From contig JAIGNY010002799.1 of the NCBI GenBank assembly GCA_020152595.1, forward strand, positions 62,001-126,000: DNA of 64,000 bases, written 5' to 3'. Position 1 is the stretch's first letter. Each line of letters begins with the position of its first letter. Position numbers and translations under genes: made by a program. A model generated the notes under the pieces. That model was not told where the DNA came from and searched no databases. It was given only the letters and a program-made list of their open reading frames with translations. The stretch comes from Chiridota heheva. Taxonomy: Eukaryota; Echinodermata; Holothuroidea; Apodida; Chiridotidae. This document shows positions 11,001-17,000 of the stretch, one piece after another.

Positions 11001-14000
11001 ATTACAACCAACTTGCATCAATATTGAGCTAATAAACACTATGTTAATTTTTCATTTGCACAGTTCTACATCAAAGGTCAAATATTTGTTAACAACAAAT
11101 TGGTTTTCTTTCATTTCTACTCTCTTTACTTACATTTATTTCATAAAGCAGCATAAACTGAAGCATTAACTACATCTCGGGTTACAATAGTTATCTCGGT
11201 AACTTCTCATATATAGTATGAAACATCCAATTCTTATACTTATTATTATAAAGTTATTTTACTTAATTACATGGAACACCAAGGGGAGAGGTTACCAGCA
11301 CTTCACCCTCACACTGGATCTTTACCATCCAGCTCCCTAATGAATACAGTAATAGTTAATACAGTAATAGTGAATACAGTAATAGTTAATACAGTAATAG
11401 TGAGTACAGTAATAGTGAGTACAGTAATAGTGAATACAGTCAAAGTTAATCTCACTGCATCTCATTTCATGATGCATTTCACTATCACATTGCCTCTTTC
11501 CATTTTGCTAGCAAAATTAAGAGACTTTAGATTGACATGCATAGCAGTTTGTGGTCCTGTAGGCCTATATGTTTGATTTCTTAAAAAATCAACTACCTAC
11601 AGTGCCATCCACAAGTTGAATACTCTCAATAAATATTAAAGCAAAATCATTTTTAAATAATTCAGCAAAAAAAAACAAGGAGGGGAGAGGTTACGAGCAC
11701 TTCACCCTCATACTGGATCTTTACCATCCAGCTCCTATTAAATTTGTGCGTAATCAGAACTAAGCAAAAATAACCATGAGGTGTTATCACATGAACAAGC
11801 CATCTGGTTTTAACTTCAAACTTTCAAGTGTTGCTCTTTTTACTCCGTCTATGTATTCTTAACAATAACCACAGAGTACAGCAGTTACAGGATACAGTAC
11901 ATAAAATTTCACACTTCATTGGACTGTTCCATGAGCATTCATTTGTTAAAAGAGTTAAAACAACATCTACAAATTATAGTATGTGAACATGTTACTTTAT
12001 ACATTACATCTTGTATAAAAAATTAAGCATTTAAAAATGACAGTGTGATTAACATGGCAGTAGACGCAAAGGAAATATCCACTGTGCAAAGTATTAAGCT
12101 AAATAATTTTACAGTACCTGACATCATTGCTTCTATGTCCTTATAATGATAACTTTCAAACCATTACGCATTATTGAGCTAACAATGATGCAAGCAGTTG
12201 CTTGAGATACAATTCTCCTCAGTGGGACATGCCTGTTAAATGTGGATATATATATATATATATATATATATATATATATATATATATATATATATATATA
12301 TATATATATATATATATATATATATATATATATATATATATATATATATATATATATATATATATATATATATATATATATATAATATATATATATATAT
12401 ATATATCTATCTATCTATCTATCTATCTATCTATCTATCTATATATATTATATATATATATATATATATATATATATATATATATATATATATATATATA
12501 TATATATATATATATATATATATATATATACTCCCATCAAATGTTGAGAAAACTACTGTTAATATTTGATTTTGGACAGTATGTTAGCATGTCTACATAC
12601 TTTGTAGAACACCCTGAACTGTTCACCATGATTAATGTTCATCCTCACTGTTGTATTCAACATCATGTTCCTCATTTAGTTCAATGTTGTTTTCACAATT
12701 GACACATTTACAAACTTCAGTGCAGGGAAGATTATTCTTTGCATGAGCATTTAGATTTGTCACAATGAGATTTTTTGCAGCCGCAATATGTAAGTTCAAT
12801 ACCTCCTCTGGAGCAGGCGCCATACTCATCCAGTCAATTGTCAGACTTTCCTCTTCTATTCTCCACCCATGTCCTACAGGATTAGGAATATTTGGTTTAC
12901 ATTCCAAACCGTTTCCATATTGCAGCCTGATAATTAGCCCTTAAAATGTGCTTCTTCAAACAATCCAAATTTGGAGGCATGGCTGAATCAGACTTGTCTG
13001 CTCGGGTTGTGAAGTGCCTGTATCTTGCTTCATTTACTTTCAAACATTCCTTGTAACAATACATTGCACAGGTAAACTTCTCAAGTCCTTCCACAAGCTC
13101 TGCAGACAGTGTAAAGTAGAACCAATAAGTTGAAACAATTCAATGGCATTCTCTTCTTCCATCAACTTCCAAACTTTCACTTTCCCTTTTCCATGAAAAG
13201 AACTTACAGTGTCACACCCAGTGAAACTATGAAATCCGATCAAAGCATGCCTCTTGTCACCCAACCAATTACTTACTCCTGACAAGTCAACAATTCTTTT
13301 CCTTTTTGACCGTGTAAAAAAACAAGTCAGCAGTCTCTGAGATCTCCTTAGCCAATGCCACACCAAGAACGAAAACATCTGTGTCAGGACTTCTAATCAT
13401 GATACTGTCCGCAGATTTTGCAGCAAACTGACAATGCAACAGCATTCGTGTGTCGCCCTCTTCATGATTGCAGTGTAATTCTGGCTGCTCCTGTACTTTT
13501 ATTTCTCCATTGACCACAGAAAGAGAGTAGCATTCATCTCCATGGGACATATATATTGTTACGCCATTCAACAATGTAGACGTGACTCTCTCTGCCAGTC
13601 GTTGAAGAAAAAGAAACAAGTTCTTCTTTGTTTGGTCCAGAACTCATGAATTTCTTGAATTGCTTTGGCATTTTCACCTGTTGTCCATGTATTTTATAAC
13701 GCTGGACACCACTTGTGCTTGCTCTTTTTGCCTCTCTGCGTTTTTGATAGATTCTTGTGGGTATCGATCTGTGACAAAGTGAATCTCCTTGTGGGCTGTA
13801 TCCTTGGCAAGTTTTACCAACTCCTTCATAACAAGCTCAGAAAATTCTCCAAACGTCGGTGGTAAGTCTCGAGCCTGAAACTGTTGGATCATTGCCATTC
13901 CATCGACAATCCAGATGCAGCTCTTTGGAATGGTGGTAATGTAAGGTTCTGGAACTACCAAAGACTCCAAGTGGTGCATCAACTTTGCTTTTGGATGTTT

Positions 14001-17000
14001 GACCAAAGTTCCACTGTGTGTTGCAAGGGATAGGGGTAATGGACCAAGACTGTACTGTAAAATAGTCTCCATGCTGATGTTTCTCACTTTTCCACAAACA
14101 AGCAGTCTTGCAAACAAATTTCGGTTAGATTTCAACTCCATCTCTTTTCCTTTTACTTTCACTTTCTTTCTTTCTCCAATTGATGCGAAAGTCTCTAGCC
14201 TCTGAGACTTAATGGGATCAAAGAAATCCACTTCATTGGTTTGTAACCTTTTCTGAATGAAAGATTTCACAGCTTCTTCACCCTTCTCTTTAGCGTGCAG
14301 CAAGCCTTTTGCAACATGATCTGGTGCCACAATGCCTGATGTGAGATGAACTAATTCTTCTTGATCTAATTCAAATGGGTTGGTCATCGATTCGATTGTT
14401 GCCACTAATGCTTGAATGTCCTGCTCATCTTTGGCATTACGAGTGATATCTAGATCTTTTCTGGTCCTTGACTTGTCACCTTTTCCAGCCATTTCTTGAC
14501 ATTCTGCGGCTATTTCAGCTCTTACGTGGAATGATGCGATCCATCGATGAACAGCAGCCTTGTTGGTTGTGATTCCAATCAGACCACCCTTTGTTTTAGA
14601 ATCTCTGTTCATGGTTTGTTCGATTGTCATGTCACATGGAACTCCTGAAAAACCATGGTTTTGCTGTCTCTGAACAGAAAAACTCGCCATTTTGAAAATG
14701 TTGTGCCAGGGTGTGATTGCTTTTGGTGACATGCTGCATTTCAAGCCAGTACACCGATGAGTACCTTGAATAGTTTACTCTGTCATAGGCCATAAACCAT
14801 GGCATCATGGACCGTAGGGACGACAGGTGAAGATTCCAATCTCCTTCACGAGAAGCACGGAGAAAAAGTAAGAGAACTTGCACCATTTCCAAGTAGGAGT
14901 TCCAATATCGGACTGTAGGTGAAGTTGAGTTAGTCTTCACAAATAGCAAGTAATTTTGTAATAAACTTTGAACTGAGGATCTGACAAAGCTTCTTCAAAA
15001 TTTACTGGAAATGATCTTCTTAACTTATCAAGGACAGCATTTATTGCAGGAAGGTCTGCCCCACTTAGGCTTTTCAGGTATGCCTGAAATCTCAGTCGAT
15101 GAAGAGCTTCATACATTAACTTGTGGAATCTCACGCTTCTGTTATAGTGAGATCCCCCCATGATGCCATTTAAGGAGCCATGTGCAACCACTTCTGATTC
15201 AATAGCAATATCATCTAAACCACTATCTTGAAACCTTTTTCCGATACAAGCCATGAAGCACATTGAAGTATGAAAAGCTCCTAATCTAATAATTATGCGG
15301 TTCTTAAATACCTCATTACGCCATCGAAGTTCCTGGGCTTTTTGCATAAATTGCCTGATCCAGCACAACAACAATTTGTTCCAGGCCTAACTTGTTAGCT
15401 ATCTCTAAGCTCGGAGTAATATTGTGTAAACTGTGTCCATTTCAGTGGGGAGGCATCAATTACTGGCAAGTATCCAATCATAGACTTAGGGGAATTGTCT
15501 TACACAGGAGTGTGTTGAATCCTGTCCAACTTGGAGGATGAGGGGTTTGGCTGATTGTGCTTGTCTAATGAGAGCAAATACATTGTCTTTCTGGTGAGCC
15601 TTTAACTGCATTTCTACATTCTCAGTAAGGAAATGTCATTTGCAAATGCCACTGGGCCTTTTCGTTGAACATTAATGCAAGTAGCAATGCTCCTGGGGGC
15701 ACATCAAGGGACCTCTTCTTCTTTTCTTAGTTTTTGCCTGTGCAGTCAAGTGTCTCTGACTTGGGGAATTCTCTTTGGATCACTATCCCATTTGTGTTGT
15801 GGGTTGTCCCCTTTCCAGATATTGTTTCCTCCCCAAAATCGTTGTTGTCCCACACCAGTGTTGTGAATCTCCTTCTTCGATGAACGGAGGAAGGCTTAAA
15901 GGTCCTCTCTTGATCTGCTGCTCAGCTATTGCTGTGTCATGCTCCAAAACAGCAGAATGAGACACAGTATGTCCAAACCCATTAAGAATTCCGATCAATT
16001 TTGCTGATCCAGTCATATGTCTTATAGTCATACCTAGTGCTAGGTGCTTTGGCATCTGCTTTCGTCCTGATGAAGCATGATAAATGATATCTTGTGCAAG
16101 AGACACAATTCTCTGATCATCACTTTCTGAGACTGTTAGAAGAGGGTAGATCTGAAGTTGAAGCATAATGGACAGGTTAAGAGGATATGATTGATCAAAA
16201 GTTCAGTATTGCAAGTTAGGCAGAAAGGTTTGGGAGAGCCTGATAGGAGAAAGGAGTGGGTGAAAATGGTATCCTTGCAGTTACCCTTCAGCCCACCTTT
16301 AACACCAAGCCATTATCAGTATTGATCCCTCAGTAGCATAGGTAGTTGCATAGGAAGATATTTCACATTGAGGGAACCAGATTTTTACTTTTGTCCTAAC
16401 AAACCTATAAAAATGTATATGAGCCTTGGTATCCCCAAACTACTTTTATAATGGGTGGTAGAAATAAAATCATTGGAAATTATGGGGATAACTTGGCAAC
16501 ATTCCAAAAAAATTAAAGATTTTTTTCTCTCCAAAAATATGGATACAAATTTTCCGAAATTAAATGAAATATTCTCGAAAAATTTCCGAAAATTAAGGAA
16601 AATTCTCCCTTTGTAACGAGAAAAGAAAGAAAAGATGTGAAGGGAAACTTGACTCTTTATAATCAATTCGTCACCCCCTCCACCCCCCCCCCAACCCATG
16701 GTCATGCAAGACCATTTCAAAAACATTATTTGTCTTTTATTCTGATAACAGTACACACAACCTCCATCACTGTTACAGTCTTTGAAATTGGCATTACATG
16801 TTAATGGTTACTACCATACCTTAGTTTGAGAGTGTGCCCACTTTACCAACAGTTTTCTTCCAAGGGCCAACTTTCCGTCCAATGACGACATCGCAAGGAC
16901 AGCTTCCTAGAGGGGAGTTCAAACACAAAACATGATTAATGGACGGCTTACAGTAAAAAAACTTTTGACACGCAAATATTTTTAGCTACAATTTTTGTTT

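Follow-up and report, generated by a model that had tools for sequence, protein, structure and literature searches.

A truncated DNA transposon of Chiridota heheva, most likely of the AcademX group, with a predicted FEN1/XPG-like domain in its protein

A 64,000-nucleotide stretch of the genome of the holothuroid Chiridota heheva (GenBank assembly GCA_020152595.1, contig JAIGNY010002799.1, positions 62,001 to 126,000; C2751:62001-126000 in our numbering, and hereafter the window) contains a truncated copy of a DNA transposon whose mobile origin is evident from its ends and target duplications. An earlier reading of the bare sequence, hereafter the original prediction, had described at positions 12632 to 16166 a repeated invertebrate protein family with the layout of a FEN1/XPG-like PIN nuclease and had supposed that a mobile or selfish origin would explain its copy number. 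From searches of the source assembly (1.1 Gb in 3744 contigs; L numbers label relatives and loci), we consider it likely that the element is a truncated transposon of the cut-and-paste kind, most likely an AcademX member, and that its protein combines zinc-finger-like pairs, a probable DDE core, a flap endonuclease (FEN)-like domain of the FEN1/XPG type within the PIN superfamily, and a CXC tail.

The complete element is about 9.5 kb long and carries 16-bp inverted repeats at its ends (TAGGCCATGGGCYGAA), which read TAGGCCATGGGCCGAA at one end and TAGGCCATGGGCTGAA at the other. When compared with the copy on contig C47, 9 of 10 copies, including that of the window, shared the same left end and had unrelated flanking DNA, while the remaining one (L030) started about 190 bases inside the element; the second end was examined in the C47 copy and three more. 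Genome-wide, the left end was matched exactly at 18 places and the right-type motif at 27, 13 of the latter in a single tandem array on contig C958, and a reversed control pattern had no match in the genome. Both ends could be paired by position in 13 copies, of which one measured 5.1 kb and twelve between 8.5 and 9.6 kb. An exact 3-bp target duplication flanked all eight of the paired copies that were read, compared to 6 agreements in 56 mismatched pairings. The high-copy L016 subfamily starts with TAGTGGGGCGG and has 337-bp inverted repeats (86.6% in L021 and 83.1% in L022), with 3-bp duplications in both of these copies, L016 itself showing one such end. The terminal repeats and target duplications that the original prediction proposed to look for around copies in the same genome were thus both found, and they bear out its suggestion of mobility.

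The family is abundant. One 118-amino-acid piece gave at least 109 matches in the genome, some loci being counted twice (150 of 559 candidates scored), and two relatives used as queries gave at least 99 and at least 90 (1645 and 2140 first-look candidates, with 94 and 89 scored). Open frames of 766 to 1184 amino acids are kept by some copies, for instance 768 at C47 (L013), 766 at C1526 (L014), and 997 at C3043 (L016), as might also be seen in a host gene family enlarged through duplication. Such an immobile family is nonetheless extremely improbable in view of the sharp shared ends, the inverted repeats, the 3-bp duplications, and the unrelated flanks.

In the window, homology to the sister copy extends from 10791 to 16142, and the unit is therefore larger than originally outlined. 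The part upstream of 16142 is missing from the window copy, and with it the gene start and the other end; when positions 16100 to 18000 were compared with L013, the match stopped at L013 position 7137, and no match to L033 was seen. The minus strand does contain the peptides quoted in the original prediction, in the order given there, from 12632 to 14774. They are distributed over several frames, and minus-strand open frames with additional parts of the transposon protein extend to 16202. The features are as follows.

10792-16142, minus strand: truncated transposon copy, with 98.98% identity across 5393 alignment columns to the copy on C47 (L013:1754-7137).
10792-10807, plus strand: terminal inverted repeat of the gene-distal end, TAGGCCATGGGCCGAA, from the genome-wide pattern match at C2751:72792 (window 10792).
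12632-12940, minus strand: C-terminal piece with the CXC (Tesmin/TSO1-like) cysteine-rich tail (Pfam TCR, E 0.11).
13040-13396, minus strand: last acid and glycine-rich stretch of the predicted FEN-like domain; profile positions align to Exonuclease 1 residues 202-264.
13287-13643, minus strand: HEEGDTR and central acids of the predicted FEN-like domain, from conservation; profile positions align to phage T5 FEN residues 117-234.
13534-13836, minus strand: out-of-frame piece between the 13674-14774 and 13287-13643 pieces, from the open frame translation.
13674-14774, minus strand: 366-amino-acid piece with the D...E of the central region, a linker, IVDG (IVDGMAM), and the next FEN-like motif.
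14632-14994, minus strand: central-region piece; the same residues are aligned in the alignments of relatives made from L013.
14937-15386, minus strand: central-region piece that contains LGAFHTS, including the conserved H, and the residues after it.
15783-16202, minus strand: central-region piece; the homology to sister copies stops inside it, at 16142.

The whole reading is not contained in any one frame of the window; the pieces at 13287-13643 and 13674-14774 share a frame but are separated by an out-of-frame stretch. An intact counterpart is provided by the 768-amino-acid open frame of L013 (3612-5915, minus strand) from the same genome, which contains all motifs in one frame and in the same order, with HEEADTR, i.e., A for G. 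To trace the frame breaks, nine of eleven copies were aligned over about 5 kb against their majority. Each differed by 1 to 11 substitutions versus 15 to 29 insertions or deletions, mostly of one base, the latter being more numerous in all nine copies; for the window copy, the respective counts are 8 and 26. Decay of the copies was set aside as the source of the breaks on account of this excess in every aligned copy, which suggests instead that the breaks are residual long-read assembly errors and that the copies are young rather than old and decayed.

We then considered the predicted nuclease domain in an alignment of 34 rows, corresponding to 16 greedy clusters at 70% identity (nonoverlapping fragments counted apart), with 7 to 15 clusters contributing a letter at each acid. 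Among the rows with a letter, the motif acids are conserved as D51 (13/13), D96 (14/14), E199 (27/30), E200 (30/30), D202 (28/30), D225 (31/31), D227 (31/31), and D283 (27/28), to which K104 (15/15) and R111 (15/16) can be added; in L013, the eight acids lie at positions 342, 387, 490, 491, 493, 516, 518, and 574. Conservation is 85% or higher in 55 of the 399 columns; the acidic ones among them number nine, and all but one of these are motif acids. Given this concentration and the at least 109 genome matches, the motif set is not a product of chance. The order D, D, EExD, DxD, CD is almost fixed across subfamilies, so that the FEN1/XPG-like succession recognized originally (D, D, an E/D cluster, DxD, D) holds in intact and divergent copies alike. 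Residues of FEN1 and EXO1 are referred to by their familiar numbering and roles.

Profile searches point in the same direction. Exonuclease 1 (EXO1) was the top PDB match of a five-sequence profile (E 0.036). With the 34-row profile, the LIN54 CXC domain (E 0.0027) and EXO1 (0.015) came ahead of cullin-4A (0.15), and with a 42-row profile of the domain only, EXO1 ranked first (E 0.0034), the next unrelated match being neurolysin (0.068). A profile of 22 phage flap endonucleases, built from the phage T5 enzyme D15, aligned in two collinear segments, placing positions 45 to 96 on T5 residues 20 to 68 (score 27.2) and 189 to 312 on 117 to 234 (26.9), whereas 200 column shuffles scored at most 22.1 and the reversed profile 11.8. 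These values come from the unrealigned hhalign run; the realigned run shrank to one column, with a score of 17.9, where 30 shuffles did not exceed 7.1 and the central region reached 3.5. In this alignment, D51, D96, E200, D202, D225, D227, and D283 fall on T5 D26, D68, E128, D130, D153, D155, and D204, which we take to be the active-site acids of the T5 enzyme. The glycine-rich stretch after the last acid, which may correspond to a helix-hairpin-helix, likewise aligns with both EXO1 202-264 and the T5 enzyme.

Several observations weigh against a FEN-like domain. The best single stretch of the EXO1 match has an E value of only 0.02 on its own. The HH-suite probabilities of the T5 segments are 3.7% and 3.4% (E 0.011 and 0.013). 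As a single sequence, the T5 enzyme ranked sixth by score among 31 T5 proteins (17.9, against a best of 20.9), although its register was unchanged and its alignment was the longest among the eight top-scoring proteins displayed. Among the matches of the 34 rows at E values up to 1, there was no Pfam XPG, 5′-3′ exonuclease, or PIN model, and the four places in the genome matched by the XPG_I model include none of the listed family copies. Finally, ratios of nonsynonymous to synonymous substitution rates (dN/dS) of 0.41 to 1.27 in seven young-copy comparisons, of which five covered the nuclease region, reveal no strong purifying selection. Silent sites were saturated in two comparisons between subfamilies. 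Constraint is visible between subfamilies but not between young copies, and a lack of visible constraint between young copies is common for transposons.

In light of the missing Pfam nuclease match, the low HH-suite probability, and the unremarkable score of the single T5 sequence, the acids might instead form another metal site, for example in a different Rossmann-like or NYN-type domain, with convergence accounting for the resemblance to FEN enzymes. Such a site seems quite unlikely, since it would leave seven acid positions and a glycine-rich stretch collinear with the T5 enzyme, as well as EXO1 as the top match of the domain profile with its D..SK...R residues aligned, albeit in a substretch below threshold. 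We therefore favor the FEN/XPG-like reading, a fold that we infer from the acid order and from the EXO1 and T5 profile matches. In this respect the original prediction stands by sequence but gains no match to a curated family model, and the profile-profile search that it proposed yielded T5 scores above all 200 shuffles together with an HH-suite probability under 4%.

The remainder of the protein, which reaches 1466 amino acids in the open frame of L003, was analyzed in the same way. In the central region, ahead of the FEN-like domain, the conserved residues are a D in DN.D (8/9 rows, with one apparently misaligned row as the exception), a D in V..D...Y.KA (10/10), an H in G.FH (10/10, two stray letters left out), and a D...E pair (D in 11 and E in 10 of 12 rows), several of the rows being close relatives of each other. 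From these D, D, H, and E residues, we infer that the region is probably a DDE transposase core with a large insertion. It matched nothing in PDB, which weighs against this assignment, and no Pfam transposase; DUF6589 (PF20231) was detected below its cutoff in 3 of 20 central-region rows (best E 6.1e-4), and the other Pfam matches were due to chance. By eye, the N-terminal pieces of L013, L016, and L018 contain C..C...H...C pairs, from which L014 and L015 depart. The Cys-rich tail noted originally proved to be a CXC domain, with Pfam TCR matches in 8 of 34 rows (best E 3.9e-6) in addition to the LIN54 match given above; in L013, the TCR score (21.8 bits) is below the cutoff of 23.5. Window pieces submitted singly to Pfam and PDB returned nothing except the sub-threshold CXC match on the tail, and a PDB search with one window piece alone gave no match; a single-sequence phmmer search of L013 against PDB returned noise only.

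A central region without a solved counterpart, next to FEN-like acids that rank with the most conserved columns of the C-terminal part, could also mean that transposition relies on the FEN-like domain as its nuclease and that no DDE enzyme is present in the central region. We regard this as very unlikely: the central D (8/9), D (10/10), H (10/10 true rows), and E (10/12) resemble a DDE core, and a passage of PMC9587614 counts Academ among 20 Repbase superfamilies said to encode a DDD/E transposase.

As to its identity, the element probably belongs to AcademX, within the Academ superfamily. According to one passage of PMC10045372, AcademX elements make target duplications of 3 or 4 bp and AcademH elements of 9 or 10, a difference linked there to the encoded nuclease and helicase. 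Both AcademX traits named in that passage are seen here, i.e., 3-bp duplications (8/8 copies, and 2/2 in the other subfamily) and a predicted nuclease besides the probable transposase, and the earlier statement that the family has no assigned activity is accordingly doubtful. Bivalve-specific amplification of Academ is described in a passage of PMC10294476. Our literature search for Academ together with XPG found no paper in the collection covered. The AcademX nuclease is presumably XPG-like, and we assume its zinc-finger details likewise. An origin in a different superfamily, either undescribed or another one with 3-bp duplications and the same layout, is unlikely. It would fit a central region that matches no Pfam transposase and an Academ assignment drawn from duplication length and nuclease as described in one passage, whereas 3-bp duplications together with an encoded nuclease are the very property stated for AcademX in that passage (PMC10045372). 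Taking the AcademX assignment, the element is probably a useful example of an already described superfamily rather than a new kind of system.

In the transposition mechanism that we propose, the N-terminal fingers and the CXC domain would bind the TAG...GGGC ends, and the DDE core would attach the 3′ ends to the target with a 3-bp stagger between its strands. As for the FEN-like domain, it might cleave the remaining (5′) strand where the element terminates or trim 5′ flaps during excision and gap repair. Only tentatively do we suggest that it makes an essential transposition cut, on the nontransferred 5′ strand via a flap or branched end, in which case a DDE strand-transfer core and an unrelated structure-specific 5′ nuclease would work together in one protein. 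To our knowledge, such a division of labor between two enzymes has not been demonstrated for any eukaryotic cut-and-paste transposon, although only a limited search was made for it.

Some additional observations concern the transposon and its surroundings. At G000:C958:620716-621540, some 0.8 kb of DNA contains 13 right-end motifs, with spacings that are mostly 33 bp or close to a multiple of it, and this array is perhaps a small satellite made from the transposon end. Within the element, near its gene-proximal end, L033:133-817 contains tandem repeats whose matches are offset by some 80 bp or a multiple of that. In the window, about 10 copies of a 47- to 48-bp tandem repeat (9925-10421) lie some 370 bp beyond the element end, a 17-bp tandem repeat is present in 19.4 copies (17857-18186), and a minus-strand segment (19580-20182) shows similarity to RNase H/RVT_3 below the cutoff (E 4.6e-4) and is perhaps a retrotransposon remnant. 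A bacterial promoter scan near the element end found nothing.

Relatives were also encountered in records labeled bacterial. L003 (JAJRVU010000273.1, 1-6512) is a contig of a metagenome-assembled genome, assigned to Planctomycetota in GTDB, and its transposon shows 97.4% identity to L014. The 175-bp flank of this transposon corresponds to a repeat in the genome of the window, best at 99% on C413 among the 40 matches listed, and the contig is most likely host contamination. The C413 site (2382345-2382519) might be an empty site, with no element there among the matches listed. L004 (NZ_CAHJWD020000426.1, 981-2013), on a Bathymodiolus brooksi gill symbiont contig, is a diverged family member and probably mussel DNA. 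A viral or phage origin was rejected, as a protein scan, two patterns, and tblastn found no relative and the pattern matches L001 and L002 were due to chance.

For a family so abundant in this genome, Pfam-A offers only DUF6589 below its cutoff, CXC, and chance matches. Linking a predicted FEN-like nuclease to a DNA transposon that makes 3-bp duplications gives annotators an identity for many such uncharacterized genes, and near-identical copies with defined ends provide material with which the role of a flap nuclease in transposition could be tested.

Several known systems can be compared with this one. DUF6589, a family without a stated function, covers part of the central region (L003 residues 559-760) at 17.3 bits, under its curated cutoff of 27. 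With Exonuclease 1, FEN1, and XPG, the predicted nuclease domain shares the order of acids, the D..SK...R stretch, and GCD followed by a Gly-rich stretch; it differs in matching no Pfam XPG model and in being fused into a protein with a CXC tail. Phage T5 D15 shares two collinear segments with seven acid positions, a signal obtained with the 22-enzyme profile, while its single sequence is not outstanding by score and the HH-suite probability stays under 4%. AcademX, compared by the description in PMC10045372 only, has in common the 3-bp target duplications and the encoded nuclease. KolobokP, as described in PMC9587614, likewise unites a DDD/E transposase and a second nuclease in one transposon, but there the additional enzyme is a homing endonuclease of the His-Me finger type and the target duplications of Kolobok are TTAA.

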